A stretch of 40,952 bases of DNA, from IMG/VR virus record IMGVR_UViG_3300000557_000007, positions 1-40,952 of that record; one strand, written 5' to 3'. The translations under genes were made by a program, and so were the position numbers. This document shows positions 310 to 29,239 of this stretch, one piece after another (position 1 is the stretch's first letter; each line of letters starts with the position of its first letter). The DNA is from a virus. A model generated the notes under the pieces. The model was not told the origin of the DNA. It saw only the letters and a program-made list of their open reading frames with translations, and did no database searches.

Positions 310-1334
310 TGAAGGGTTTAGAAGAGTTTACTCACGTATTAAATGATTGCGGGTTATTCTGGTTTTTGGGTTGTGGTTGCTTATTAGGGATATATCGGGA
401 TGGTAAACCTATACCATGGGATAGTGATGTTGATGTAGAGACTACTGTGGATGAATTTAAGAAGGCGCAGAAGAAGTTAATGAGAGATTTATCGAAAGGG
501 AGTTTTAATTGTCAGATACTAAAGTTTAATGATATACCTGTGAAGTTGGTAGCTAGGAAGTTTGGTGTTAAATTTGTATTAAGATTCTGGAATAGGAATT
601 CTAAATCAAAAGGCTGGATATTAAAGTACCCTCGAAGTTATTTACCTAATTATTTATTTGACAATAAAGGGTACGTGGAATTAAGAGGCAGGAAGTATCC
701 TTGCCCATATAATATAGAAAGTTACTTAGAACATTTATATGGTACTGATTGGACGGTAGTAAGAAAAGGAATATCGTATAAAGATTACTCTACTAGCAAC
801 TATATTGCTGGTGGTAAGATTACGAATGGAGGTGCAGTGATGTATAAGATAAGATTGACTAACCTATCTGGAAATGAGAAGAGTGTGAAGCTTTATAGAT
901 CGTATTCGGTGAGAGTAATTAAGCCAGGTAGGGCAGAAGTATTTGAAGTTGGTAGTGATTCTGAATTTAACTATTACAAGTATGTAGCAAAGATATTATC
1001 ACTAAAGATGGATTATAAGGCAGAAGGTGCTTCTAAAAGGGATAGTTTATCGGAAGATGTAGAAAAAGGTAGTAAGGGCGTAGATGAAGGTCAGGGTGTT
1101 ACTAGTGGAAGCACGGATGATGGCGTTACTGATGATGGTAGTGTTACTTCTGAAAGGGAATCTTTTCATAGGAAATTTGGTAGTGAAGAAGATTTAGAGC
1201 GGTATATTGAACAGATGACGGAAGAGGAACTTCGGAATTTTATGGAGTATCATTCATTGAAAGCTCATCCTAACTATCGTGAGAAGGGTTTAAGGAAACA
1301 AATTATGAAGAACGCTGATGCGTTAGTGGGGTGA
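309..1334 (+). CDS. LicD-like nucleotidyltransferase domain fused to a small phage structural-type protein
   Basis: Residues 1-175 resemble the LicD/fukutin family, which transfers phosphocholine or similar groups to surface polymers. A GxLLG-like segment (24-28) is followed by IPWDSDVDVE (35-44), the acidic metal-binding signature, and near 138-150 comes the late LicD-type YLEHLYGTDW. From residue 178 the protein changes character: a beta-rich segment (MYKIRLTNLSG), then a Ser/Gly/Asp-rich linker, then a small helical C-terminus (about 295-341) resembling HeH/SAP-type domains often seen in small virion-associated proteins. A perfect internal ribosome binding site and ATG sit exactly at the junction (840), so this may be a gene fusion or two nested genes. 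The start is ATG 309; GTG 306 is also in frame. There is no good upstream Shine-Dalgarno, so coupling to the previous gene is likely. The LicD call is fairly good; the role in the phage (surface modification or virion glycan chemistry) is inference. Confidence 0.65.
   Translation: MKGLEEFTHVLNDCGLFWFLGCGCLLGIYRDGKPIPWDSDVDVETTVDEFKKAQKKLMRDLSKGSFNCQILKFNDIPVKLVARKFGVKFVLRFWNRNSKSKGWILKYPRSYLPNYLFDNKGYVELRGRKYPCPYNIESYLEHLYGTDWTVVRKGISYKDYSTSNYIAGGKITNGGAVMYKIRLTNLSGNEKSVKLYRSYSVRVIKPGRAEVFEVGSDSEFNYYKYVAKILSLKMDYKAEGASKRDSLSEDVEKGSKGVDEGQGVTSGSTDDGVTDDGSVTSERESFHRKFGSEEDLERYIEQMTEEELRNFMEYHSLKAHPNYREKGLRKQIMKNADALVG
829..842 (+). promoter_or_regulatory. Internal ribosome binding site and ATG inside the LicD fusion gene
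   Basis: GGAGGTG at 829-834/835 stands 5-6 bases before an in-frame ATG at 840. Translation from here would give a 164-residue protein (840-1334) that starts exactly where the LicD-like domain ends and the structural-type domain begins. The site matches the ribosome binding sites of the main genes in this window. Confidence 0.55.
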
Positions 1335-1477
1335 TTAAAGAGTGCGGAACTGATAGTGTAATCTATGGATAATGTTACTTAGATAGGTATGTATATTAAA
1401 GATTGTAGTTGTAAGATGTTAGTCATAGTCGGTATATCTTGAAGATATGCTAAATTAAAAATTGGGGGGTATGAGCT

Positions 1478-2611
1478 ATGAGTAAGGAAATGAAGATTTT
1501 AGAGACTATAGAAAGTAAGCGAGGCGGTAAGCTGACAGAACAGCATGGTAATACTATCGATCCTGGCTATAGGCAACCTACTCAAGCAGGTGATGCAGGG
1601 CTGAAGATGTATGGCACTCATGCAGATGCTAGTATGAGTAGTGATTTAAGTCCTGTGGCTTCTCCTGCTGCTGGGTATGTTTATACTGTGCCTAGTGGTG
1701 CTGAGATCGTATTACCACGTGAACTTGATGCTGGTGAGACTATTAAAGATCCTCAAACTGGTGATGAGGTAGTACCTACGTTTTCTAGGATGGTAGGTGA
1801 CGATGAAAGAGACTATTCTGCAAGAACTATTAGTACTGCTGTGAGTGATAAGGAAGAAGTGGATGATGTATCAGGCAAGGTGGGCGAGATTACTAGGGAA
1901 TTTATCGAAAAGTCTACTGGTATTTTCCAGGAGTACTTACAGAATGCTGGTGCGGATTTGAAGGAGTTTGACTATGAGGTAGGCGATAGGATACTTAATA
2001 TGGAAGCTTGTATAGGTACTGATACTGCTTCTGAGATTAATGCAACGGAATTGGGTAATGCTTTGCATGAGAATCTTGGAGCTAGAGTTATAATTCCTGA
2101 AGTAAAACAATTAGAAAAGGAGGGATCTGTAGTTATGAATGTTGTAGTTGGTGACAACAGAAAGATTAATGAGACTTTCGGAGGTGGATCAAGAAGGGGG
2201 TCTGGTCGTAGATCTCGTAAATTATCTGAAAGGAGGGAGCCTCGTAGGATGGAAGAAAGGAGTTTGCGTAGAAGCAGACGTAGCAGACGTGGTGAAAGAA
2301 GCTTGAGTGAAGAGCGTGAGCGTGGCGGTATCAGAGGTTATAGGAGACCTGAACGTGGTATAGAGCGTAGAGGCAGAAGTTTGGGTGAGAGATCAAGCAG
2401 AAGGTATAGTGAAAGAAGGGAAAGAAGAAGTTTAAGGGAAGAGCCCGCTAGAAGAACTTCTGATAGAACACGTAGAGTAAGATTTTCGGAAGGTAGAAAA
2501 CCTATGAGGGAAAGAAGATATGATAGAAAGGCAAAAAGACCTGCAAGAAGGAGAACAGAGTCTACTGACTATCGTAGAAGCGTGAGCAGTAGAAGTAGAA
2601 GGTTAGGATAA
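1478..2611 (+). CDS. Two-part protein with an Arg/Ser-rich (RS-like) C-terminal tail
   Basis: The ATG at 1478 follows GGGGGG-type ribosome binding sequence. Residues 1-218 are an acidic, mixed alpha/beta region with no family I recognise; it has a short AGYVYTVPSGAEIVLP stretch. From about residue 238 the protein becomes extremely basic: the last 140 residues contain about 54 arginines, mixed with Ser and Glu in RRSRRSRR, ERRERRS and SSRSRR patterns. This resembles eukaryotic SR domains or protamine-like nucleic-acid-binding tails. An internal Shine-Dalgarno and ATG at 2135 would make the basic part alone. Basic low-complexity phage proteins often bind packaged DNA, so an internal head or DNA-condensing role is plausible but unproven. 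Arg/Ser-rich coding continues in frame past the stop (see 2612-2662). Confidence 0.7.
   Translation: MSKEMKILETIESKRGGKLTEQHGNTIDPGYRQPTQAGDAGLKMYGTHADASMSSDLSPVASPAAGYVYTVPSGAEIVLPRELDAGETIKDPQTGDEVVPTFSRMVGDDERDYSARTISTAVSDKEEVDDVSGKVGEITREFIEKSTGIFQEYLQNAGADLKEFDYEVGDRILNMEACIGTDTASEINATELGNALHENLGARVIIPEVKQLEKEGSVVMNVVVGDNRKINETFGGGSRRGSGRRSRKLSERREPRRMEERSLRRSRRSRRGERSLSEERERGGIRGYRRPERGIERRGRSLGERSSRRYSERRERRSLREEPARRTSDRTRRVRFSEGRKPMRERRYDRKAKRPARRRTESTDYRRSVSSRSRRLG
2115..2137 (+). promoter_or_regulatory. Internal ribosome binding site and ATG before the Arg/Ser-rich tail
   Basis: AAAAGGAGGG (2115-2124) precedes an in-frame ATG at 2135 by 10 bases. The product would be 158 residues, starting MNVVVGDNRKINE and running straight into the Arg/Ser-rich region. 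Purine-rich stretches are common in this sequence, but a ten-base match at usable spacing and at a domain boundary is less likely to be chance. Confidence 0.5.
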
Positions 2612-2662
2612 AGATCTCGCATGAAAGAAAGGGATGCAGGTAGGCGTAGATATAGGAGATAA
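2612..2662 (+). other. In-frame Arg-rich extension after the stop codon of the Arg/Ser-rich gene
   Basis: After the TAA at 2609-2611 the same frame stays open for 16 codons, reading RSRMKERDAGRRRYRR, and closes at a second TAA (2660-2662). Its composition matches the preceding tail, so the stop is either a recent truncation or a site of occasional readthrough. The interval 2663-2847 that follows holds no gene I can support. Confidence 0.5.
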
Positions 2663-2847
2663 TTGATAGTATGGTTAATGGTTAGTCGAAAGTTTTAGTC
2701 TATATATAAGTGAGGAGCTTTTAGGGGACAAAGAGTTATGTGATATTTTTTCTTTGGATGAACCTTTATGCTTCTACTTATGTAGTAGTAATGGGTTGAA
2801 ACTATTTAAACAATACCTTTGAGGATTTGAGGAGGTGTCGGTTAAGG

Positions 2848-3423
2848 TTGTATTTATATGAATATACTGTTAAAGAGTTACTTGATATGGCTAAGAGGGA
2901 TACTGAACGTAGATTTGAGAAGCGTTTACAATATACTATAGATGATTATGGCGGTATTGACTTTGGCGAATTGGAGAGGGGACACCTCCAGATATATTTT
3001 TTAGTGAAAGGTACTCAAGATTATCGTATTACTGTTAAGTTTGAGAATTTTGTACCCTTGTTGAAATCTGATCGGTTTATTTATAGAAGGGATGTTCAGA
3101 TGAAGGGAATTTCTTATTCACATGTTATAAAAATATGTTTACAGGAAGTAGTGGATACTTTTGATGTAAAAGTTGCGTGTGAATGCCCTGACTTTCATTA
3201 TAGGTTTGCGTATATTGCTACTCAGCAGAATATAAAGGTGACAGAGCCTGAACATCGTCCTCCTGATATAACTAATCCTGAACGTGTAGGGTATGTGTGT
3301 AAACATTTGTTTATGATTTTAAGCAAACCTTCTAAATGGATACCTAGGATATCTCCTATGATCAAGAAGGCAACGTTAGGTTTAGGCATTGTAGATCGTG
3401 ATGATGTGTATACTAGGGAGTAG
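2848..3423 (+). CDS. SWIM-type zinc-finger protein
   Basis: The C-terminal half carries the SWIM zinc-binding pattern: C111-x-C113 in ACECPDF, then after 37 residues C151-x-H153 in YVCKHL, the CxC...CxH arrangement of the family. SWIM domains bind zinc and mediate DNA or protein contacts. The rest is a mixed alpha/beta domain with no clear relative. I chose the TTG at 2848 because AGGAGGTG (2830-2837) lies at correct spacing from it; the in-frame TTG at 2827 lies upstream of that ribosome binding site. The gene lies among head-region genes, so it may be a virion or head-assembly component. Family call is good, role unknown. Confidence 0.7.
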   Translation: MYLYEYTVKELLDMAKRDTERRFEKRLQYTIDDYGGIDFGELERGHLQIYFLVKGTQDYRITVKFENFVPLLKSDRFIYRRDVQMKGISYSHVIKICLQEVVDTFDVKVACECPDFHYRFAYIATQQNIKVTEPEHRPPDITNPERVGYVCKHLFMILSKPSKWIPRISPMIKKATLGLGIVDRDDVYTRE

Positions 3424-3457
3424 TAACGACTTCGTTAATGTTTGGAGGTAGTATGCT

Positions 3458-4075
3458 GTGGTAGCTTTGATTCCTTCATTAGCAATTACGGTACTGTTAG
3501 TATTATATTTTTATTATATTGATCCTAATAGGGAACCTATCGGTAAGATCATAGAAGCTTTGTTATTAGGGTTCTTGATAGCTTATCCAGCTAGCCAGTT
3601 GCAAGGATTTATACCTAGTGTTGAACATTATTTCTATAAATCGTTTATATCGGCAGGGTTGATAGAAGAATTCTTTAAATTACTGGCGTTATTTATCATA
3701 TTGTATGGTAGTAAGCATTATAATGAAAAAATAGATGGTATTACTTATGGTGTGATGGTAGCTTTAGGATTTTCAGTAGCTGAGAATCTGTTGCTTATAC
3801 AGGACGTGCAGGTAGGATTAGTAAGGGCGTTTACCGCTACTCCTGCACATGCGTTATATGGTATAAGCATGGGCTACTATTTTAGTAAGTTTATACATAG
3901 GGAGCAAGTTAGGTATCTACTACCAGCATTGTTTATTCCTGTAGTTTTGCATGGAGTATATAACGTGATAATAATGTCGGGATATATATTCTCTTTATTA
4001 TTGTTTATACCGTTTATGGTATATATGTGGGTATTATCTATGAGGAAGCATGATAGATATAGCGATAAAGTTTGA
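3458..4075 (+). CDS. PrsW-like intramembrane protease
   Basis: A 205-residue, strongly hydrophobic protein with about six to eight membrane segments and the PrsW-family signatures: E70-E71-x-x-K74 in IEEFFKLL, DGITYGVMVALGF with E109-N110, H131 in PAHALYG, and H165 in LHGVYN. In Bacillus, PrsW makes the first cut in the anti-sigma factor RsiW and so switches on an envelope-stress sigma factor. The GTG start at 3458 is set by GGAGGT (3444-3449); the nearby ATG at 3453 hits a stop at once. Such a protease is unexpected among phage structural genes. It could activate a host stress regulon, process a phage membrane protein, or remodel host surface proteins; these roles are inference. Confidence 0.85.
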   Translation: MVALIPSLAITVLLVLYFYYIDPNREPIGKIIEALLLGFLIAYPASQLQGFIPSVEHYFYKSFISAGLIEEFFKLLALFIILYGSKHYNEKIDGITYGVMVALGFSVAENLLLIQDVQVGLVRAFTATPAHALYGISMGYYFSKFIHREQVRYLLPALFIPVVLHGVYNVIIMSGYIFSLLLFIPFMVYMWVLSMRKHDRYSDKV

Positions 4076-7647: not shown

Positions 7648-8256
7648 TTGAGTATAGAATTGTATGATAATGCTGTTCTTAATAAGTTCCAGGAAGTATA
7701 CCCTAATACAGTTTATGCTCCTACTGATAGAGCATTGGAGTATGCTTCTGAGGTAAGTGAGACTAAACAACCTAAATTTCCGTTGATCTCATTATACAGA
7801 CAACCTTTCAGTATAATGATTGAGAATGTGCATATGAAGGAGTATAAGCAGGGTAGGAAGTCAAGGCAGACAGAAGAAAAAGATGTAGTGGAGTACTTAA
7901 GGACGCTACCAGTAGAGATACCTTGGCAGATCGATTTATGGTGTGAGACTGATAAACAGATGTCTCAATTAATTCAAGAATTAGTGTTTTGGTTATTGGA
8001 TGAACCTGTAGCGATTGTGAAAGAACCTAATACTGGTCAGGAATTCCATTTTAATCTATTCTTCAGTAGAGGTGAGATTACTGATGATACTGATGTGCAA
8101 GCTTTTACTGAATTAGGTAGATTACATAGGGCTTCGACTGAGATATATACTGATGAAGCTAGAGTATTTATGCCTTATGGTAAGTTTACGATATTAGAGA
8201 TAGACTGGACTGTAGTACCTGTAGAAGAGATTAAGAAGGAGAATTGGAGTGAGTAA
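7648..8256 (+). CDS. Probable tail terminator / tail-completion protein
   Basis: The TTG start at 7648 follows GAAGGTGA. The 202-residue protein has a short helical N-terminus (LNKFQEVYPNTVYAPTDRAL), then an alpha/beta core with DLWCETDKQMSQLIQELVF, a helix pattern common in tail-terminator folds (strand, helix with repeated polar contacts, strands). It lies two genes before the sheath and just after the gp10-like gene, where T4 gp15-type terminators belong. The C-terminal 115 residues are duplicated immediately downstream in the same frame. Confidence 0.55.
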   Translation: MSIELYDNAVLNKFQEVYPNTVYAPTDRALEYASEVSETKQPKFPLISLYRQPFSIMIENVHMKEYKQGRKSRQTEEKDVVEYLRTLPVEIPWQIDLWCETDKQMSQLIQELVFWLLDEPVAIVKEPNTGQEFHFNLFFSRGEITDDTDVQAFTELGRLHRASTEIYTDEARVFMPYGKFTILEIDWTVVPVEEIKKENWSE

Positions 8257-8622
8257 TAGGCGAGGAGGGTTCCAGTAGAAATACCTTGGCAAGTGGACTT
8301 GTGGTGTACTTCTGATCAACAAATGACGCAGCTAATTCAGGAGTTAGTATTTTGGTTGATGGATGAGCCTACGTTTTTAGTACAGGAACCTACGACAGGT
8401 CAGCAGTATCATTTTAATATATTCTTTAGTAGAGGAGATATTACCGATAATACGGATGTTCAAGGATTTACGGAACTCGGTAGATTGCATAGATCTACAT
8501 TAGAAATTATGACCGACGAGGCTAGAATATTCATGCCTTACGGAAAATACACTATCCTTCATATCGACTGGGAAGTTGAAGTGGTGGATAAGATTAATAA
8601 AGAAGATTGGGATAAACTTTAA
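8257..8622 (+). pseudogene. Partial tandem duplicate of the tail-terminator-like gene
   Basis: Codons from 8272 repeat the second half of the preceding gene (from 7909 there) with most residues kept: PVEIPWQ-x-DLWC, QLIQELVFWL, FTELGRLHR, DEARIFMPYGK. The copies are exactly 121 codons apart in the same frame, separated by TAA TAG. AGGAGGG (8263-8269) is present but no ATG, GTG or TTG lies at proper spacing; the first in-frame start is a GTG at 8293, inside the homologous part and about 24 bases from that site. This is best read as a remnant of a duplicated gene, although the frame is intact to its TAA and a 109-residue product is possible. The many silent and conservative differences mean the duplication is not recent. 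Confidence 0.6.
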
Positions 8623-8647: not shown

Positions 8648-9523
8648 ATGATGGTTGACGACGATAAAACGGTAACGATCATAATGGAAGAAATGGAAGG
8701 TTATGATGTGCAGTTTATTGTTATGAATCAGGATGAGGAGTATTTAGAGGATGCTCAGGTTGTATTTGATGATGAATTAGGAGATACTAATGCATTAGGT
8801 AGAGAATCCTTTAGAGTACCACTTCCAGGAGGAGTATACTCCTATCAGGTAAGTAAGGAAGGATATTATGCGGTAACTGGAAGTGCAGAAGTTTTTGAGG
8901 ATAAAGTAATAGAAGTCATATTAGGAAGAGTTCCTGACGTATCAAGAGTACGGTACCAGAGATGTACGGATATCAGGATTACTTGGAGTTATCCTGAAGA
9001 TCTTGCGACTGAGGAGTATGAAGTAGTATTCTTAGATCACGAAGATAATGAGATCGATACTCAAACAGTAACTCATGGAGGTAAGGCAAGTGAGCCTACT
9101 CCTCCAGATCCAGAAGGAATGACTTTTATTGGATGGGATAAAAGCCTCGTAAATATTACTGAAGATACAGTAATAAGAGCTCAGTATGAGATCAAAACTT
9201 ATACAGTTATATTCCAATCCATTATAGAAGGTGATCAGTATGTTATCAGTGAACAACAGGTAGATCATGGAGGATCAGCAGATGAACCTGATGAAGGAGA
9301 TGTTCCTGAGAAGGATGGTTACGAATTTGTAGGATGGGACCACGACTATGAAGATTGGAACTATGTAACAGAAGATATGACAATCACTGCTGAGTATGAG
9401 CCTGTAGAAGAGCCGATATTTGAACGTCTAACAGACACAGATGAGGACTGGAACCGCGAGGGCACAGTACTCCGTAATGCTAAAACACACAACGATAAAC
9501 TGGAGATGGACGAAACCTACTAA
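8648..9523 (+). CDS. Modular display protein with InlB B-type repeats
   Basis: ATG 8648 or 8651 follows AAGGTG. Residues 15-95 look like a carboxypeptidase-regulatory/PEGA-type beta sandwich (EDAQVVFDDELGDTNALG, KEGYYAVTG). Residues 97-118 (RYQRCTDIRITWSY) match the first strands of an FN3-like domain and closely resemble a segment in the sheath gene. Two InlB B-type repeats follow (about 125-182 and 184-253), each with HGG-x-A, GWD and ITEDT...A-x-YE marks. The last 35 residues use a different, more GC-rich codon set and look foreign. The protein is probably virion-attached (tail or neck decoration) and may bind the host surface. Position directly before the sheath suggests related function or a split-off part of it. 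Confidence 0.6.
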   Translation: MMVDDDKTVTIIMEEMEGYDVQFIVMNQDEEYLEDAQVVFDDELGDTNALGRESFRVPLPGGVYSYQVSKEGYYAVTGSAEVFEDKVIEVILGRVPDVSRVRYQRCTDIRITWSYPEDLATEEYEVVFLDHEDNEIDTQTVTHGGKASEPTPPDPEGMTFIGWDKSLVNITEDTVIRAQYEIKTYTVIFQSIIEGDQYVISEQQVDHGGSADEPDEGDVPEKDGYEFVGWDHDYEDWNYVTEDMTITAEYEPVEEPIFERLTDTDEDWNREGTVLRNAKTHNDKLEMDETY

Positions 9524-9529
9524 ACTAAC

Positions 9530-9565
9530 CGAACCTGAAGTCTGCTTTGTCGGGCTTCAGGTTCG
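9530..9565 (+). terminator. Hairpin between the display gene and the sheath gene
   Basis: A perfect 11-bp inverted repeat (CGAACCTGAAG at 9530-9540 and its complement at 9555-9565) encloses a 14-base loop. It is followed by TTAAAATAA and not by a clean T-run, so termination may be partial. It lies inside the compositionally odd block and may have arrived with it. Confidence 0.55.
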
Positions 9566-9594
9566 TTAAAATAACTTAAAATGAGGTGATTAAA

Positions 9595-12500
9595 GTGTCA
9601 ATAACTTTTGGCGAGGAAATCAGAATCTGGAAATACACCGAACACTCTGACATTGTTTATGCCGTAGCAGTCGACTCCGATGGCTACATCTATAGTGCAT
9701 GTTGGGATAACGAAGTCCACAAAATCGACCCCGACGGCAACAACGTCTGGAAATACACCGAATACTCTGGCAGTGTTTATGCCGTAGCACTCGACTCCGA
9801 TGGCTACGTCTATAGCGGATCCGTCTCCTATGATGGAGTCCACAAAATCGATCCAGACGGCTCTAACGTCTGGAAATACACCGAACACACTGGCACTGTT
9901 CGTGCCGTAGCAGTCGACTCCGATGGCTACATCTATAGCGGATCCGTCGATAATGAAGTCCACAAAATCGATCCAGACGGCAACAACGTCTGGAAATACA
10001 CCGAACACTCTGACATTGTTCGTGCCGTAGCAGTCGACTCTGACGGCTACGTCTATACCGCATCCCAAGATAATGAAGTCCACAAAATCGATCCAGACGG
10101 TAACAACGTCTGGAAATACACCGAACACTCTGGCGGTGTTTATGCCGTAGCACTCGACTCCGACGGCTACGTCTATAGCGGATCCACCGCAAATGAAGTC
10201 CACAAAATCGACCCCGATGGCAACAACGTCTGGAAATACACCGAACACACTGGCGATGTTTATGCCGTAGCAGTCGACTCTGACGGCTACGTCTATACCG
10301 CATCCCAAGATGATGAAGTCCACAAAATCGACCCCGACGGCAACAACGTCTGGAAATACACTGGACACACTGGCAATGTTTTTGCCGTAGCACTCGACTC
10401 CGATGGCTACATCTATACCGCATCCCTCGATGAAGAAGTCCACAAAATTCAAGACAATTATAAAATCACATCAGCTTATCCTTCAATAGTTAAGGTAAGG
10501 TACGTTAGATGTAATGATGTTGAAGTTACTTGGGATTATTACTTAGCTGCAATTGCAATAGAGATTTCAACTAAAGAAGAATTACAAAAGATAGGTGTGC
10601 ATGAAAGTTTTCCGATGGATGCTCATTATAAGTTAATGAATGATATAGATTTAGAAGGTGAAAATATAAAACCTATTGGTGGATTACATGAAACTACTCT
10701 TCCTGAAGAAGATAGGTTTAAAGGCATACTTGATGGTAATGGCTATAAAATTCATAATGGCGAAATTAAACATGAAGGTAAGCGTTACATTGCACTGATT
10801 GCTCACGGCGATGGTTGTAAGATTAAAAATTTAGGAATTGAAAATGTTGATGTCAAAGGATCTGACGATGTAGTAGGATGTTTAGTGGGTTTAACTGACT
10901 ATGATTATACTGAGATTGAGAATTGTTATTCAACAGGAAATGTCGAGGGAGATCAGTTTGTAGGTGGTTTAGTAGGGTATAATTGTGGAGTAATAAAACA
11001 AAGTTATGCAGTAGGGGATGTAGAAGGTAGGAAGCATGTGGGTGGACTGTCGGGTATTAATGAAGGCGACGGCGAAATTTTAAATTGTTATGCAAAAGGT
11101 AGCGTTATAGTTTCAGAAGGTTGGGCAGGAGGTTTAGTAGGTGGTTCTTCTTGGTCTTTGGGATCTATTGAGAATTGTTATTCTACAGGATCCGTATCTT
11201 CTGTAAGTAATTCAGGAGGACTTTTAGGGGAATCTCCTCCAGCAGAGAGTGTTCATAATTGTTATTGGGATACTGAAACTTCAGGAACGGAGACTGGAAT
11301 TGGGGAAGGCGAAGGAGATGTAGAAGGTAAAACTACTGCCGAAATGCAAGACATAGAAACTTTTGAGCCTGAATGGGATATAGCAACTAAAGAAGATTAC
11401 GATGATGAAGTTTGGTATATAGATGATGGAAATGATTATCCTCGCTTATACTGGGAACTTCAACCTGAAAAACCTGAGCCTGAGGTAGAAGATATAAAGT
11501 TTTCTATAGAACGTAGTATAGATGGAGGTCGATGGACTCATATAGGAGATAAGGAAGGTGATCCTGATTATATAATGTATTCTTATTTGGATGTAGGTGT
11601 AATAGATAAGGTTTATGGTGTAGGTAATGTATCTTATAGAGTAAGAACTATTGAGCCTGGAATTAGTAGGTTTTCTGATCCTGGTAGTATAGAAATTATG
11701 GGATCAAGAGCAGAAATTGCTAAAGGGAGGAGATTGATTATGCCTAAAGGTGTAAGTCCGAGAATTATTACTAAAGAGACAGATTATACAGGTTACATGG
11801 AAGGTTCTCCGATAGGTGTACCTTATGGAACTATAGGAGGTGCTACGAAAGGTGAGTTTGGTAAGATATACGATATTTACTCACCTGAGGACTTTATTAG
11901 ACAATTAGGATTTCCTATGACGGAGAGTTATTCAAACTTAGGAGCGTTTATGTACTTGAAACATGGGAACTTACTTAGATATATGAGAATAGGAGACGAG
12001 GAAAAGGCAGAACTATCGGAAGTGATTATCGAAGCTAAAGATGATGAAGATCCTCCTAACAAAAGAGATATTGTTAGGATTACAGGTGATACTAAAGGCA
12101 CATATTTTGATAAAGTATCGGTAGAAGTATCTTTAGTGGATGATCTTACTAGCGAGGAGGAAGGTGAGTACAAGCAGAATCAATTTAGCTTGACAGTTTA
12201 TTATGACGGTAGAACTGTTGAAAGTTACCCAGAGGTATCTTTAGTTAAGGATGATCACCACTTTATTGTAGCGGAATTAGAAGGATCAAGATTCATCAAA
12301 GCAGAAGCATTAGAAGATTTAGCTGATGAAGGATTAGAAGAAGATGAGGAAGTTGTAACTGGGATGTATTATCTGGATGGTGGTGATGATGGCTACGAAG
12401 ATCTTGAATCTAGTGATTATATAGATGCAATAGAAGGGTTTAAGCACGAAGAGATAGTAGATATAAGAACCTTCTCTATTCCTGATTGTATGGGTAGGCA

Positions 12501-13296
12501 TAAGGATGTAATAAGAGCTATGGAAGATTTAGCAGAATTTCGTCAGGATGTAGCTATTTTTATAGATACTCCAGAAGAATACATGGATAGCTTAAGATTA
12601 ACTTCTAGATGGCATAATGGTTATTTAGGTGATTCTACGGATCCAGAGAATGTTGATCCTACTGAGCCTATTGATCATAGCTACTTAGGCATTTATTATC
12701 CATGGGTGATTGTTAATATCAATTACCTTAGGGATCATCAAGTGATCCCTCCGTCTTCAGTGGTTGCAGGAGCTTATGCGAGATCTTATGAGATGAGTCA
12801 ACCGTGGTTTGCTCATGCAGGAGTATCCAGAGGACTTATTGATGTAGTGGATGTCGTACGTAACTTAAATAAAGAAGAAAGGCATCAATTGTACACTGGT
12901 GATAATAGAATTAATTCTATAATAGCTATAAAGAACTTAGGAGTTATGATTTATGGTAATAGAACTGCTCAGAGCTTTCCTACTGTTAGGGATCGGATGA
13001 ACGTAAGAATGTTATTATTGGAAACTCAGTCGGTAGTAAAGAGGGTATCTAGAGAGATTAAATTTGAACCTCATGATGAAGATAGTTGGGAAAATTGGAC
13101 TAGCAGAGTGGAAGATTACATGGATAAGGTTAAAGAAAATAGAGGTGTATATTGGTATGATGTACGATTAAATATAACAGAAGAAGATATTAAATTAGGT
13201 AGATTACCAGCGAAGATATTTATATCACCTACTCGGACGATTGAAGAGATAACTATTGAATTTGTATTAACCGATGAGGATGTAGAATTTAGTTAA
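9595..13296 (+). CDS. Tail sheath protein with large N-terminal display region (propeller, FN3, GLUG)
   Basis: GTG 9595 follows GAGGTGA (9584-9590). The gene codes 1233 residues. Residues 5-287 are seven 40-residue repeats (AVAVDSDGYVY, EVHKIDPDGNNVWKY), enough for a closed seven-bladed propeller. Residues 293-318 (VRYVRCNDVEVTWDY) and 630-705 (IKFSIERSIDGGRWTHIG, YRVRTIEPGISRFSDP) read as two parts of one FN3-like domain. Between them, about 325-620, is a GLUG-type region with repeated GGLVG and NCYSTG motifs. From residue 716 (MPKGVSPRIITKETDYTGY) to the end is a normal contractile-tail sheath, including YYPWVIVNINYLRDHQ and RTAQ near the C-terminal core. An internal ribosome binding site and ATG at 11740 would produce the bare 518-residue sheath. 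The sheath call is strong; the display role is inference. Confidence 0.9.
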   Translation: MSITFGEEIRIWKYTEHSDIVYAVAVDSDGYIYSACWDNEVHKIDPDGNNVWKYTEYSGSVYAVALDSDGYVYSGSVSYDGVHKIDPDGSNVWKYTEHTGTVRAVAVDSDGYIYSGSVDNEVHKIDPDGNNVWKYTEHSDIVRAVAVDSDGYVYTASQDNEVHKIDPDGNNVWKYTEHSGGVYAVALDSDGYVYSGSTANEVHKIDPDGNNVWKYTEHTGDVYAVAVDSDGYVYTASQDDEVHKIDPDGNNVWKYTGHTGNVFAVALDSDGYIYTASLDEEVHKIQDNYKITSAYPSIVKVRYVRCNDVEVTWDYYLAAIAIEISTKEELQKIGVHESFPMDAHYKLMNDIDLEGENIKPIGGLHETTLPEEDRFKGILDGNGYKIHNGEIKHEGKRYIALIAHGDGCKIKNLGIENVDVKGSDDVVGCLVGLTDYDYTEIENCYSTGNVEGDQFVGGLVGYNCGVIKQSYAVGDVEGRKHVGGLSGINEGDGEILNCYAKGSVIVSEGWAGGLVGGSSWSLGSIENCYSTGSVSSVSNSGGLLGESPPAESVHNCYWDTETSGTETGIGEGEGDVEGKTTAEMQDIETFEPEWDIATKEDYDDEVWYIDDGNDYPRLYWELQPEKPEPEVEDIKFSIERSIDGGRWTHIGDKEGDPDYIMYSYLDVGVIDKVYGVGNVSYRVRTIEPGISRFSDPGSIEIMGSRAEIAKGRRLIMPKGVSPRIITKETDYTGYMEGSPIGVPYGTIGGATKGEFGKIYDIYSPEDFIRQLGFPMTESYSNLGAFMYLKHGNLLRYMRIGDEEKAELSEVIIEAKDDEDPPNKRDIVRITGDTKGTYFDKVSVEVSLVDDLTSEEEGEYKQNQFSLTVYYDGRTVESYPEVSLVKDDHHFIVAELEGSRFIKAEALEDLADEGLEEDEEVVTGMYYLDGGDDGYEDLESSDYIDAIEGFKHEEIVDIRTFSIPDCMGRHKDVIRAMEDLAEFRQDVAIFIDTPEEYMDSLRLTSRWHNGYLGDSTDPENVDPTEPIDHSYLGIYYPWVIVNINYLRDHQVIPPSSVVAGAYARSYEMSQPWFAHAGVSRGLIDVVDVVRNLNKEERHQLYTGDNRINSIIAIKNLGVMIYGNRTAQSFPTVRDRMNVRMLLLETQSVVKRVSREIKFEPHDEDSWENWTSRVEDYMDKVKENRGVYWYDVRLNITEEDIKLGRLPAKIFISPTRTIEEITIEFVLTDEDVEFS
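9598..10455 (+). repeat. Seven ~120-base repeats coding propeller blades
   Basis: CACAAAATCGA recurs at 9841, 9961, 10081, 10201 and 10321 with an exact 120-base period; the earlier copy at 9718 is 123 bases away because of one extra codon, and a variant copy closes the array at 10441. Each unit codes one 40-residue blade. Units differ mainly around the loop positions (for example SGSV, TASQ, SACW). Confidence 0.9.
11722..11742 (+). promoter_or_regulatory. Internal ribosome binding site and ATG at the display/sheath boundary
   Basis: AAAGGGAGGAG (11722-11732) stands 9 bases (from GGGAGG) before an in-frame ATG at 11740. Initiation here gives MPKGVSPRIITKETDYTGY..., which looks like a native sheath N-terminus, and a 518-residue protein of ordinary sheath length. 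The signal is as strong as those of the free-standing genes of the operon. Confidence 0.75.
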
Positions 13297-13329: not shown

Positions 13330-13869
13330 ATGAGGAAGTGGGATGCTAGGCATCTATCGGATCAGAGAGATTATGAACTGCAACGTCAAAACCACTTTGA
13401 AGTTAAATTTATCAGTAATGACTATATAACATTCCCTGACGATTTTAAGTTAGCAGTACAGAGTTTTCCAGCACCTAATGAAGAGCAAGAAGCAGTTGAG
13501 GTGGAGTATGGTAATACTAGTGTAAATTATGCTGGTACCGTATCATGGGGCGATGGTACAATAACTTTGAGAGATTTTGTAGGTAAGAGGATTAAGGATA
13601 CGGTTAGAAAATGGCGTAAGTTAGCTTTTGATTATGAAACAGGTATGATAGGTCATGCTGAGACTTATAAATGTAAAGGCATAGTAACAGAGTACTCTCC
13701 AGACGGTACTGTTACAGCTAAATGGGATCTTATAGGGTGCTGGGCACAGAGTGTGGACTTTGGCACGTTGGAACATGGTTCGGCAGATAACTTAGATATA
13801 GAAGTTACTGTGCAGTATGATATGGCGATTCCTAAAGATCCTGAGAGATATTGGAGGAGCTACGGATAA
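13330..13869 (+). CDS. Tail tube protein (gp19-like)
   Basis: The ATG at 13330 follows AAAGGAGGTC. The 179-residue protein comes directly after the sheath gene, the invariant order in contractile phages. It shows the tube-protein pattern: FEVKFISNDYITFPDDFKLAVQSFPAP at the N-terminus, a central GTVSWGDGTITLRDFVG strand-turn, a RKWRKLAFDYETG helix and a late GCWAQSVDFGTLEHGS strand pair before a final beta strand. Tubes are stacked hexameric rings through which DNA passes. No oddities. Confidence 0.85.
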   Translation: MRKWDARHLSDQRDYELQRQNHFEVKFISNDYITFPDDFKLAVQSFPAPNEEQEAVEVEYGNTSVNYAGTVSWGDGTITLRDFVGKRIKDTVRKWRKLAFDYETGMIGHAETYKCKGIVTEYSPDGTVTAKWDLIGCWAQSVDFGTLEHGSADNLDIEVTVQYDMAIPKDPERYWRSYG

Positions 13870-22956: not shown

Positions 22957-24723
22957 ATGGTAGATCCTAAACGGGTTAGAAGAAGGGATGAACTTGATCC
23001 TTCATATACTAAAAGGGATAAGGAAGAGATAGAAAATTATTTGAGGGAATTAGGTAAGGAGTTATCAGAAGGTAGGTGGACTTCTGATGATGCTGCTGAT
23101 ATTGGTAATGTTTTGGTAAACTTGATGGCTACTATGGGGGATATGATAAACCTGTATATGGATAAACAAGCTCTGGAAGCATTCTTAGTTAGGGCACGTG
23201 AAAGAAAGAATGTTATATCCCATTTGAAGCCTTTAATGGGTAAGATAAGACCTCCAGTACCTCCTAAAGTTACTCAAAGATTTTATGCGGATCATAATAG
23301 ATCGATTATAATACCTAAGTTTTATACAGTTACTAATGAAGGTAAGCTTGACAGATTGATAGAGTATCATACTATAGAAGAAACTTCTATAGAGCCTTCA
23401 GAAGGTGGTTATGTGGATGTAGAAGCTATTGAAGGCAGGAAGGTTGATTTAGGTCGAAAGTATAGAGCTGACATTGATGAATTTAATAGGATATTTCTCA
23501 ATGTGGATGATATCTCTTATAGAGCTACTGATGTAGTGATTGATGGTGAACAATGGTATGAAGTTGATAGTGTCAATTTAGTAATGTTGGAGCATGAAAT
23601 TCCAGGTTATGAGCCAGAAGATCAGCGAGTTTATGCTATAGAAGAAGATAGAGAAGGAGACTTCTTTGTTAGATTGAGACCTTCATGGCAGAGCTATGTG
23701 GATGATCCTGATAACGTAAATATTGATATACGATATATTACTACAACAGGTTCTACGATAGGTGCGGAAGTATTAACTAGATTAACTGAGTCTTTATACG
23801 ATGTACCTGCTACGGAAGAAGAAGAACCTTTGAATGTAATAGATATAGTGACTACTGTGAATCATGCATCATCTCTAGGTTATGAACCTGAGCAGGATTT
23901 AGATACAGCTACTTATACAGCTATAAAGGACGCTTCAAGGATGGGATTGAATGTAACGTTGCAGGATTATAAAGCGTACCTAGATAACTATCCTGGGATT
24001 GCTAAAGGTGCAGCTTATGATTGGACTTCTATGTGGAGGCAGGTTATAGGAGAAGCTTTATATGGCGGATACGATTATGATAAAGAGCCAGTAAGTATGT
24101 ATCTATTAACGCAACCTTTTAAGATATACTTACCGATAGCGATGGAGCATGATGTAGGTGGCGAGTTTGAAGAACCTCCTAAGCCTAGTTCAGAATACTT
24201 GTTCGATTTAGAAGATGAGATGAATCGTTTCAGGGTATCTTATCAGGAGCTACATTTAAGGTATGAACAACGGTTTCTGCTTGATGAGAATGATGAACCT
24301 CGGAGTGACTTATGGCTGAGTTTTTTCAAAGATGAGGAGTATTCATCCGATCCTGATGATTTGATAGTACAGGTAGGTGATCCTTTAGTGATTTATCAGC
24401 CTGTTAATCTCATGATAAGGTTAACAGTACCTTACGATTTTAAGGAAAGTGATAGAGCAGGAGTAAGTTATGCAGTTACTCAGAGGATGTTAGAGTTTTT
24501 TAGACCTATCCATCATGAGTTTGGTAGGCATATACATTTATCTAGTATAAATGCTGCTATATTAGGTGCACATGAGGGTATACTTCATGCTTTTATTAAA
24601 GAACCTGAATGTTTAGAAGAGCATATTCGTATGAAGAGTCCGTTTCATTTTCCATATCTAAAAAGTGTGGATTTTGATTGGGTGAAGGAGGATGAGTATG
24701 CGTACTATAGATATAGGTGGTAG
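22957..24723 (+). CDS. Baseplate wedge protein, gp6/J-like
   Basis: ATG 22957 follows GGGAGGTGAGG. The 588-residue protein has the expected opening for the J-like wedge group: about 60 residues of charged helix, then SDDAADIGNVLVNLMATMGDMINLYMDKQALEAFL, matching the 'aDpg..Ll.l.A...' helix of J proteins, and a beta-rich centre. Near residue 300-350 lies LDTATYTAIKDASRMGLNVTLQDYKAYLDNYPGIAKGAAYDW, typical of J. It forms the wedge ring together with the gp25 and gpI-like products. Its 3' end overlaps the next gene by 26 bases. Confidence 0.8.
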   Translation: MVDPKRVRRRDELDPSYTKRDKEEIENYLRELGKELSEGRWTSDDAADIGNVLVNLMATMGDMINLYMDKQALEAFLVRARERKNVISHLKPLMGKIRPPVPPKVTQRFYADHNRSIIIPKFYTVTNEGKLDRLIEYHTIEETSIEPSEGGYVDVEAIEGRKVDLGRKYRADIDEFNRIFLNVDDISYRATDVVIDGEQWYEVDSVNLVMLEHEIPGYEPEDQRVYAIEEDREGDFFVRLRPSWQSYVDDPDNVNIDIRYITTTGSTIGAEVLTRLTESLYDVPATEEEEPLNVIDIVTTVNHASSLGYEPEQDLDTATYTAIKDASRMGLNVTLQDYKAYLDNYPGIAKGAAYDWTSMWRQVIGEALYGGYDYDKEPVSMYLLTQPFKIYLPIAMEHDVGGEFEEPPKPSSEYLFDLEDEMNRFRVSYQELHLRYEQRFLLDENDEPRSDLWLSFFKDEEYSSDPDDLIVQVGDPLVIYQPVNLMIRLTVPYDFKESDRAGVSYAVTQRMLEFFRPIHHEFGRHIHLSSINAAILGAHEGILHAFIKEPECLEEHIRMKSPFHFPYLKSVDFDWVKEDEYAYYRYRW

Positions 24724-27700
24724 AAAAGATATACTTGAAATCTTAAAGTCCGATGTATCTCCAGAGATGCAGGTTAATGAAGATTTAAATGTACTTTTAG
24801 AAGTGTTAGCATCGGAGATTTATCGGTTATATGATAAAGTGCATAGATTCCCTGAGATTATAGATGTGGATTATAGTCCAGAACCTAGATCTGTAGCAGT
24901 TATAGTTGATAAGAATGATGATGAATTAATCAGAGTGTGGAGAGATAGGGTATCTGATTATGAAGGTTATATCGAAGTGATAGAACAAGGCTCAGGAGAT
25001 AGACCTTTGACAGTCGAGTATGATGAATTGAGGAAGATACTTACTATCGAATTAGCTTTAGAGGATGGTAATGTGTCAGATGAAAATCGGATAGGAATTA
25101 TAGCTGATAAGATTAATGAAATTGATGGATTTATAGCGGTCAGTAAAGGTAGGCTAGATGTTATAGATCAGATAGATGCTGATGGGATGCATGCTGGTAT
25201 TGTTGATCCTAGTAGATATTTTGATAATTGGGATCATGTGTTTTATTACTTTTATTTATGGGAAGAAGAACCTTTGGAAGAAGGTACTAAGATATATATG
25301 ATTCCTGATGATGAGTTGTATGAATTTAGGGATGATACTTGGGTAGGTATCGGAGGAGTACCATTTGAAAGAGATCCTAGAGATGACTTCTTACCGTATA
25401 TTGCTGCATACTTAAACTTTAGGTATAAGGATCATCATGATCCTGACGTACAAAGGAATTATATTAAGTATATTAGATCGTTACAAAGGATTAGGGGGTC
25501 AATATGGTCTCTGAAGGTAGCTATATTATTATATGGTAGTGATGAAAGAGCATTGATAGAGTTGCCAGGATTATCTGAATTGCGATTGAATGAATTGTGG
25601 TATCCTGAGAAATTTGAACCTTATGAAGGTATGGTAAAAACTTGGAGTGAAGAATTTAGGGAAGAGATAGGCGAAGATATACCTTATGGTATTATACTTG
25701 TACAGCATGGTAGGGGATGGCAAAATGTAAGGACTCCTTTTACATACTTGGAGCATGTGAGACCTGGAGGTATTAGGCTTGATTTAATAGAGCAAGAAAA
25801 AGAAGAGAATCAAAATGTAACGTGGGGTAGAAGGTTATGGTATGCTCCTATGAGAATGATAGAAGTAAGTCATATGGCATGGCAGGATCAAAGGTTAATT
25901 ATACATCCTGATGCTGATACGCCTTATTATGAAGAAGGTTATCGGCATTTTCTGGATTGGAGAGATTACGATCCTCCTGAACCTACTGCTCCTACTATTA
26001 CTCAACATCCAGATCATGAAGACATATATCATGGAGATTATGCTCAATTTGATGTAATAGTCAGTGGTACATTTCCGATGGATTATCAATGGCAGTATTC
26101 AGACGATGGAGGGAGTACTTGGAATGATATAGAAGGTGCGGAAGGTTCTGCGTACTCCATTAGTAGTGTAATTTATAGTGAACATAACGGTAATCAGTAT
26201 AGATGTAAGGTATCTAATGAATGGGGAGAAGCAGAATCTGATCCTGCTACTTTGACGGTTTTAGTGGATTCTTTAGAATTTATAAAAGAGCCTGATGACG
26301 TAGAAGCGTCTCATGGTGAAGAAGTTACTTTTGAAGTAGATGCAGAAGGCACTACTCCTATTGAATACCAGTGGCAGTATACCGATGAAAGTGATCCTGA
26401 TGAAGGAGATTGGAATAATATCTCTGGTGAAACAAGTACTAGTTTGAGCATTGAAGCTGACTACAATGTGAATCATGAACGTAAATATAGATGTATGGTA
26501 TTTAACCCTGCGAATATCGAAGGAGTATCTACGAGTATTGCAACGTTGACAGTAGTATCTGAAAACATAGTTGTAGAGAGGATAACAGAAGAAGTAGAAG
26601 TGGTGGAAGGTGGAGATACTACAGTAATTGTAGAGGTATTGTCAGGAACTCCAGTAATAAATTTTCAGTGGCAGAAGTCTGATGATGATGGTAGTACTTG
26701 GGATGATGTTGCAGGAGCAAGTGGTGATGTTACAGAAGTACCTTATATCTTAGAACATGATATAGAAGATGCTGATTACGAGAATGATGGAAGGTTATAT
26801 AGATGTAAATTGGATAATGTAGAAGGTGAAGTAACATCTGAAAACATATTGTATACAGTTAAGCAGTTACCGAGTTTTGTAGATCATCCAGAGGATAAAG
26901 AAGTGGAATCTGGTGATGAAGTTGTATTTAATGCAGAAGTGTCTGGTACTGAACCTATAGAAGTGATCTGGCAGTATGTAGATGATTTAGAAGAATCTGA
27001 ATGGGTCGATTTAACATCCTGGACGGAATTATCAGGTACGGTTACTGATTATACGATAGAGTCTGCAGAATTTGGTGATACAGGTTACTACAGGTGTAGG
27101 GCAAGTAATGATTATGGGATAGTTACTTCTAATGTAGCTTACTTAGAAGTCACAGGTGATGGTCCTACTATTATAGAGGATTTACCTGATGAGAAGGTAG
27201 TGGAAGAAGGCGATAATGTTGAGTTATCCATAGAAGCTGAAGGTAGGGGAGAATTGATATATGCGTGGTATAGATCGGAGGACGATGGTGCAACTTGGGA
27301 TTATGTAGATGCGGGTGAAGTAGCTCCTCCTTATTATACTATAAATGATATTGATACTGATGAACATGGTAATAAGTATAAGTGTAAGGTAACTGATCTT
27401 GACGATAGCGAAGAATCTAACTCGTGCAGGATAGTATTTAATTTCAATATCGAAGCTTCTGCAGTTTCTGAAGAAGGAGGTAGCGTTGAAGGCGATGGTG
27501 AGTATGAATACGGTGATAATGCAGAATTATATGCTAATCCTGAAGAAGGTTATGAGTTTATTAGATGGAAAGAAGATGGTACGGAAGTTAGTACTGATAA
27601 TCCTTATATATTTGAAGTAACAGAAGATAGAACGCTTGAAGCTAAATTTGGATTGAAGGAGTATGAAGTAGAGATCACTATAGAACCTGAGAACGCAGGA

Positions 27701-29239
27701 ACGATAAAAGAAGGAGAGGGTGAATACGATCATGGTGATGAAGTAACTGTGGAGGTTGAGGCTAATACAGGCTATGAATTTGTTAGATGGGAAGAAGGTG
27801 GTACTGAAGTAAGTACTGATAATCCTTGGACATTTACGATAACTGCGAGTAGGGATTTAGTAGCTGTATTTGAATTAAAAGAATATACAGTAACATTTAA
27901 GGATTATGATGATACTGTAATAGATGAGCAGGAAGTAGAACATGGTTCTGATGCAGAATTACCTGACGATCCTGAAAGAGAAGGGTATACTTTTGTAGGT
28001 TGGGATGAAAGTCATGAGAATATAACAGAAGATACTGTAATAACTGCTGAGTACGAGGTAAATACATATACTGTAAGTGTTACTGCTGAACCTGAGGAAG
28101 CTGCAAAGGAGTTAAGTGGTGCAGGCGATTATGATTATGATACAGAGGTGGAGTTGGAAGCTACTCCAGAGGACGCTTACGAATTTGTCAGATGGGAAGA
28201 AGATGGTACTGAAGTAAGTACTGCTAATCCTTGGAAGTTTGATATGGGAAGCGATGATATGAATGTAGTAGCTGTATTTGAGCCTAAGAATACTATCCAA
28301 TTCGAGCAGGATGGATCGGAACAGCAGTTTGAAGTAGAATTGTCAGGAGGTCAAGAAGCTGCATGGGAATTATATGGTGATGGAGATTTGTTGGACGTAT
28401 TAATAGGTAATCAGGTAACTATCCATATAGATGATTATGGTAGTTATACTGATAAGCATTTTAAGTTAGTACTTCCGAGTTGGGAATCCTTAGTAGGAAC
28501 TTTAGATTGGAGCGATAAGGGATTACAGGGAGAACTAACGGAAGATATTAAATATCTAACTCAACTAGAAAGGTTATATTTATCAGAGAATAATTTTTCT
28601 GGTAGTATACCTAATGTATTTGATGATCTGAGTGATAACTTAGAAAGATTATATTTAGATGATAACAATTTTACGGGCGAGTTTCCTAGCACTATTGAGG
28701 ATGCGAGTTCTTTAACACGTGTAGATTTTTCATATAATAGTCTGGATGAGTACAATAGTGGTGTTAGTAATACTACGTTGACGCATTTCCGAGTGAGTCG
28801 TAATGATTTTAGTATAGAAGACATTAAGCTTATGTTAGATCACTTCTATACGTTATACTACAATAATCCTGAACAAGCAACTAAGGAAGTTCGTTTAGAT
28901 TTTAATGCTCTTTTTGATGAGGAAGATTATGAATTTATACATGATATAAGTAGTGCTAGTAGTGATAGTATTACAGTCACTGCCCCAGGTTGGGGCGATG
29001 ATGATTATGCAGGTGATACGATTAGGATATTTAAAACATCTCTTTTAGGTGATGGTCAAGTTAGAATTATAGAGTCTAATACAAGTGATACGTTGTACGT
29101 TACTGAGGATTGGGATCCGATTCCAGAAGGGTGTAATAGATTTGTTGTTTATGAACCTCCTAGTGTAGGAGAACAACCTTGGTGGCATGTGGAGCAGTTA
29201 GAAGATGCTGGATGGTCGTTGTATGTTCAGTGGAGTTAA
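24698..29239 (+). CDS. gpI-like tail protein with five Ig, four InlB-type, LRR and shared C-terminal modules
   Basis: ATG 24698 lies 6 bases after AAGGAGG; ATG 24692 is too close. Residues 1-425 are the baseplate-attached, gpI-like part (TIDIGGRKDILEILKSD, later DDFLPYIAAYLNF and RGSIWSLKVAILLYG). Then five Ig-like domains of about 95-100 residues start near 429, 522, 620, 721 and 819, with repeated YQWQ...YRCKV...TLTV marks. Four InlB B-type repeats start near 914, 987, 1062 and 1124 (EFVRWEEDGTEVST, FVGWDESHENITED). Residues 1198-1400 hold a beta domain and plant-type LRRs (LERLYLSENNFSGSIPN). The end (1434-1513) is a module also found at 33814-36075. The gene looks built by serial addition of display modules to a baseplate protein, probably as a fibre that binds host surface. 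Confidence 0.8.
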   Translation: MRTIDIGGRKDILEILKSDVSPEMQVNEDLNVLLEVLASEIYRLYDKVHRFPEIIDVDYSPEPRSVAVIVDKNDDELIRVWRDRVSDYEGYIEVIEQGSGDRPLTVEYDELRKILTIELALEDGNVSDENRIGIIADKINEIDGFIAVSKGRLDVIDQIDADGMHAGIVDPSRYFDNWDHVFYYFYLWEEEPLEEGTKIYMIPDDELYEFRDDTWVGIGGVPFERDPRDDFLPYIAAYLNFRYKDHHDPDVQRNYIKYIRSLQRIRGSIWSLKVAILLYGSDERALIELPGLSELRLNELWYPEKFEPYEGMVKTWSEEFREEIGEDIPYGIILVQHGRGWQNVRTPFTYLEHVRPGGIRLDLIEQEKEENQNVTWGRRLWYAPMRMIEVSHMAWQDQRLIIHPDADTPYYEEGYRHFLDWRDYDPPEPTAPTITQHPDHEDIYHGDYAQFDVIVSGTFPMDYQWQYSDDGGSTWNDIEGAEGSAYSISSVIYSEHNGNQYRCKVSNEWGEAESDPATLTVLVDSLEFIKEPDDVEASHGEEVTFEVDAEGTTPIEYQWQYTDESDPDEGDWNNISGETSTSLSIEADYNVNHERKYRCMVFNPANIEGVSTSIATLTVVSENIVVERITEEVEVVEGGDTTVIVEVLSGTPVINFQWQKSDDDGSTWDDVAGASGDVTEVPYILEHDIEDADYENDGRLYRCKLDNVEGEVTSENILYTVKQLPSFVDHPEDKEVESGDEVVFNAEVSGTEPIEVIWQYVDDLEESEWVDLTSWTELSGTVTDYTIESAEFGDTGYYRCRASNDYGIVTSNVAYLEVTGDGPTIIEDLPDEKVVEEGDNVELSIEAEGRGELIYAWYRSEDDGATWDYVDAGEVAPPYYTINDIDTDEHGNKYKCKVTDLDDSEESNSCRIVFNFNIEASAVSEEGGSVEGDGEYEYGDNAELYANPEEGYEFIRWKEDGTEVSTDNPYIFEVTEDRTLEAKFGLKEYEVEITIEPENAGTIKEGEGEYDHGDEVTVEVEANTGYEFVRWEEGGTEVSTDNPWTFTITASRDLVAVFELKEYTVTFKDYDDTVIDEQEVEHGSDAELPDDPEREGYTFVGWDESHENITEDTVITAEYEVNTYTVSVTAEPEEAAKELSGAGDYDYDTEVELEATPEDAYEFVRWEEDGTEVSTANPWKFDMGSDDMNVVAVFEPKNTIQFEQDGSEQQFEVELSGGQEAAWELYGDGDLLDVLIGNQVTIHIDDYGSYTDKHFKLVLPSWESLVGTLDWSDKGLQGELTEDIKYLTQLERLYLSENNFSGSIPNVFDDLSDNLERLYLDDNNFTGEFPSTIEDASSLTRVDFSYNSLDEYNSGVSNTTLTHFRVSRNDFSIEDIKLMLDHFYTLYYNNPEQATKEVRLDFNALFDEEDYEFIHDISSASSDSITVTAPGWGDDDYAGDTIRIFKTSLLGDGQVRIIESNTSDTLYVTEDWDPIPEGCNRFVVYEPPSVGEQPWWHVEQLEDAGWSLYVQWS

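Follow-up and report, generated by a model that had tools for sequence, protein, structure and literature searches.

The window analysed here is a 40,952-base stretch of DNA, virus record IMGVR_UViG_3300000557_000007, from an uncultured phage. It holds the tail region of a contractile-tailed phage, with neck proteins, sheath, tube, a hub protein of the T4-baseplate type and baseplate proteins; the position of the tape measure is occupied by an M23-peptidase protein. In this region, one uninterrupted open reading frame runs from a GTG at 9595 to a stop at 13294-13296 and encodes 1233 residues: a seven-bladed beta-propeller, then a GLUG beta-helix within an apparently split Fn3-like domain, and finally a complete tail sheath protein (Table 1). 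The tail tube gene follows directly, as expected of contractile tail sheath loci. Elsewhere in the window, 24692-29239 encodes a likewise heavily decorated, structural-type protein of 1515 residues, with Ig domains, InlB-type repeats and leucine-rich repeats.

Table 1. Features at the sheath locus (positions in the window).
Feature	Position	Strand	Basis and remarks
Neighbouring display-type protein	8648..9523	+	PEGA-like; Fn3-like start; two Flg_new repeats
Strong intergenic hairpin (ORF 8648 / propeller)	9526..9568	+	-25.9 kcal/mol against -14.0 for shuffles, z -3.9
Whole open frame, display region plus sheath	9595..13296	+	1233 aa; GTG start; upstream Shine-Dalgarno GAGGTGA, -9.9 kcal/mol
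Seven-blade WD40/PQQ-like beta-propeller	9595..10452	+	Pfam/PHROG matches; repeats of ~120 bp; TRF period 120 x 6.8; foreign base composition
Possible Fn3-like domain, first half (VKVRYVRCNDVEVTWDYY)	10480..10545	+	Sequence reading; BLASTP match to ORF 8648, 44% over 25 aa
GLUG-motif beta-helix-like region	10561..11454	+	PF07581, E 6.6e-17, four stretches; residues ~320-620
Possible Fn3-like domain, second half (IKFSIERSIDGG ... SDPGSIEI)	11476..11700	+	Sequence reading; native codon usage
Linker GSRAEIAKGRRLI with Shine-Dalgarno GGGAGGAG	11701..11739	+	Other two frames: TAA at 11721, TGA at 11735
Tail sheath gene proper	11740..13296	+	518 aa; ATG start; phrog_23, E 6.7e-47; SP-15/LIS04 alignment; Foldseek T4 gp18
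Tail tube protein	13330..13869	+	phrog_4542, E 1.5e-23

The sheath part looks like an ordinary contractile tail sheath, as the sequence-only reading had supposed. The phrog_23 match (contractile tail sheath, T4 gp18-like) covers residues 745-1232, and AlphaFold2 gives the 518-residue core a sheath fold with pLDDT mostly above 80, for which Foldseek finds a T4 gp18 chain as the best PDB match (E 5.6e-26) and the sheath of phage PaBG as the best match in BFVD. Confidence is low in the first ~22 residues of the core and in the linker, as expected of a free arm in a monomer. From residue 1 and over its full length, the core is collinear, at about 30% identity, with the sheaths of Bacillus phage SP-15 and Listeria phage LIS04 (Thornevirus), and the gene order sheath-tube-hub is common to these phages and the window. 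Unlike the frame described here, their sheath genes are separate from small upstream genes and have no display fusion.

The display region adds about 715 residues to this core. The sequence-only reading had assigned display domains to it. The propeller and the GLUG region have Pfam matches. The propeller spans residues 8-290 in seven repeats of about 40 residues each, which AlphaFold2 models with pLDDT mostly 80-96. Pfam returned no Fn3 match in either putative Fn3-like half, and AlphaFold2 gave no confident model of that part; for these two reasons the Fn3-like label is tentative, and so is the placing of the GLUG region inside a split domain. When IMG/VR was searched with the propeller and with the GLUG/Fn3-like region, no relative with the display region was found.

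Codon 716 of the long frame is the ATG at 11740, and the 518 residues that remain start with MPKGVSPRII. This ATG is preceded by a Shine-Dalgarno sequence (SD) in the arrangement GGGAGGAG-N7-ATG, read out as AAAGGGAGGAG-ATTGATT-ATG, so that AAAGGGAGGAGATTGATTATG coincides exactly with the N-terminus of the sheath, as had been claimed from the letters alone: in the alignments with SP-15 and LIS04, M716 falls on residue 1 of their sheaths. The SD forms a duplex of -11.5 kcal/mol with the 3' end of 16S rRNA, ninth among the 36 starts scored in the window, and GAGGTGA at 9595 was scored in the same way. It is predicted to be mostly unpaired (at least 78% per base), in a region without strong structure. 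Only 3 of 199 other in-frame internal ATGs have an SD as strong or stronger, and a GGAGG core at -18 to -5 precedes 11 of 33 gene starts against 6 of the 199 internal ATGs. The strength of the SD alone amounts to only a 1.5% coincidence; what convinces is its position at the start codon of the relatives. For comparison, in a published survey 15% of portal genes, a class with no known internal starts, were predicted to have them (PMC9430671). A consensus scan for a promoter or terminator that would separate the two forms did no better than on shuffled sequence.

Is this start then part of a nested design? To place it, distant relatives from alignment-based searches served as controls: 284 loci yielded 232 sheath ORFs with a visible N-terminus. 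In all but one of these the extension before the core is at most 14 residues (the outlier has 131), and for 95% of 191 distinct sheath starts, the 16 codons upstream include an in-frame stop. In the close relatives L088 and L089 a TAG stands immediately before the ATG, with SDs scoring -13.1. None of the 232 related genes carries an N-terminal display fusion, which is thus unique within this sample. A search of IMG/VR and of GTDB genomes for close relatives of the sheath core gave none. Since the 232 relatives share this start residue, mostly with an upstream stop, the internal ribosome-binding site (RBS) reads as the normal, ancestral sheath RBS rather than a conserved nested site; on this comparison the oddity is the absent upstream stop. 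Giant sheaths do occur, reaching 1152 residues, but their extra domains are internal, inserted after about core residue 90, and likewise internal in a survey of 112 sheath proteins (PMC9230969). L088, L089, L007 and L168 have a large insertion between core residues ~90 and ~210; the core in the window lacks it.

Two sheath genes are present in 20 of 271 loci. Tandem pairs stand on virus contigs L035, L056, L076, L081, L107, L108, L112, L113, L124, L130, L158, L165, L166, L205, L214 and L216; several join a short to a long copy, the shorter of ~620-660 and the longer of ~740-820 residues. From these gene counts, sheaths of two components look more frequent than PaBG by itself implies. In L007, a run of paralogous genes sharing the terminal motif E[IV]APLSDLKxRVKD[IL]L (456-3577) precedes the genes for tail terminator and sheath, and some of these paralogues have many 'VYGNAKVYG'-type repeat units.

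How could a frame without a stop have arisen? The stops in the other two frames fall 19 nt (TAA) and 5 nt (TGA) before the ATG, so the locus is one mutation or one assembly error away from two ordinary adjacent genes. On one account, the display protein normally stops just before the sheath, and the fusion would reflect either an error in consensus or assembly or one mutation that arose very recently in this copy. Such stops resemble normal gene junctions, 10 of the 34 junctions in the window have a gap of at most 12 nt between stop and next start, and no fused relative was seen among the 232. However, the ~37 kb of the window that is coding has no obvious broken gene; an error falling in precisely these 40 nt is therefore improbable a priori, and we regard this account as unlikely.

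The history of the locus is written in its base composition. The stretch ~9400-10452 is foreign: third-position C is 0.53 against 0.06, and the GC skew is reversed, about -0.10 against about +0.35. Codon usage in the GLUG, Fn3-like and sheath parts is that of the phage itself. The stretch that carries the propeller, with its C-ending codons and opposite skew, was probably acquired recently. The final 41 codons of ORF 8648 already belong to it, as does the hairpin at 9526-9568, which has no clear T run and was absent when sought in IMG/VR. Among plasmids, the nearest propellers found are those of Thioalkalivibrio K90mix and Natronorubrum, which would fit a haloalkaline setting. That the assembly is chimeric at the 120-bp repeats is less likely, since each of the two composition boundaries falls within an open frame. 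Further upstream, 8257-8622 is a truncated tandem copy, without an SD of its own, of the C-terminal 118 residues of gene 7648-8256 (70% identical in protein, 72% in DNA). Between neck and sheath, then, there has been more than one rearrangement, so that a fusion in frame by accident is plausible.

We propose that the 518-residue sheath is the main product and the 1233-residue fusion a minor product of the same frame, and give this reading a probability of roughly 0.55; that both starts are used, their ratio and the presence in the virion belong to its inferred part. The ATG at 11740 would be the phage's ordinary sheath start, and the 518-residue sheath would build most or all of the tail. A separate gene for a display protein (Fn3-like/GLUG) would once have stood directly upstream, the foreign propeller being added later by recombination. 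Display and sheath genes would then have become one frame, no stop separating them in this copy, and the good start at 9595 would also give the fusion of display domains and sheath. Two products from one frame are expected from the sequence, because there are usable SDs at both starts and no stop between them. The fusion, if it enters the tail at all, may be sparse or confined to a site that leaves the N-terminal arm free, an end ring for example. Against this explanation, ribosomes arriving from 9595 might interfere with initiation at 11740, one wrong base or a recent mutation could be enough to produce the fusion, and no relative shares it.

Structural knowledge of sheaths bears on where such a fusion could go. 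The N-terminal strand of a sheath subunit takes part in a handshake, paired with the C-terminus of its neighbour (PMC10457771); the 518-residue product starts at this arm and the 1233-residue product does not. By analogy with known sheaths, this N-terminus appears an awkward site for 715 extra residues. A sheath built of the long protein only, with the display region on every subunit and the internal RBS a relic, would agree with the open frame, the plausible upstream start and the existence of other sheaths of 1000-1150 residues. Yet the SD at 11740 is intact, strong and predicted accessible, and 715 residues on the handshake strand of each subunit are sterically doubtful, so that we hold this account to be highly improbable. 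In phage FV3, a sheath lacking up to 25 N-terminal residues still makes polysheaths (PMC6357053), and in the end layers of AlgoCIS the N-termini adopt different conformations (PMC8894135). By analogy, therefore, a tail could conceivably contain N-terminally extended subunits as a minority, perhaps in an end ring; full decoration would be less likely.

Between these extremes stands a mosaic sheath, in which both starts are used at a tuned ratio and the long form sits on a set fraction of subunits along the tail. The good SDs at both starts speak for it, and so do known analogues. In phage SPP1, one gene region yields short (gp17.1) and Fn3-extended (gp17.1*) tail tube subunits, found in the virion at about 3:1 (PMC6316719), and the sheath of PaBG consists of two related polypeptides (PMC7412058). 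In SPP1, however, a +1 frameshift gives a C-terminal extension of the tube, whereas here a putative second start would leave an N-terminal extension on the sheath; in PaBG the two polypeptides come from separate paralogous genes and are about equal in size. Moreover, the arrangement is not conserved among relatives, known sheath decorations are internal insertions and the N-terminal strand is engaged in contacts between subunits. We consider the tuned mosaic quite improbable: of the nested gene put forward by the sequence-only reading, the genuine-looking sheath start and the continuous frame stand, and the evolved design with a set fraction is not supported.

Two further systems help to place the locus. 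Two-polypeptide phage endolysins also pair a full-length with a C-terminal product, made from ORFs that overlap in frame and include an internal RBS (PMC9430671), but they are lysis enzymes rather than structural proteins, and their two products are experimentally confirmed where ours are predicted from sequence. Multi-domain (type 2/3) phage sheaths likewise bear extra surface domains (PMC9230969), with N- and C-terminal parts forming the core and the extra domains between them; in our frame the extra domains precede residue 1. By these analogies a two-form sheath would be a variation on a known principle and not a new category, and the claim that no such phage sheath had been described must be qualified in view of the two-length tubes and two-component sheaths already known; the N-terminal fusion itself is unmatched in the 232 relatives. 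That one gene with two in-frame starts makes a contractile sheath of plain and 715-residue-larger subunits, decorated on the N-terminal handshake arm, is doubtful. If it were true, a sheath N-terminal arm could bear a large domain, which bears on the decoration of contractile machines, and if both forms enter the tail, the sheath would be decorated sub-stoichiometrically via internal initiation. Otherwise, the locus would be a clear case of a display gene fused to a structural gene by stop loss, with the start of the downstream gene retained.
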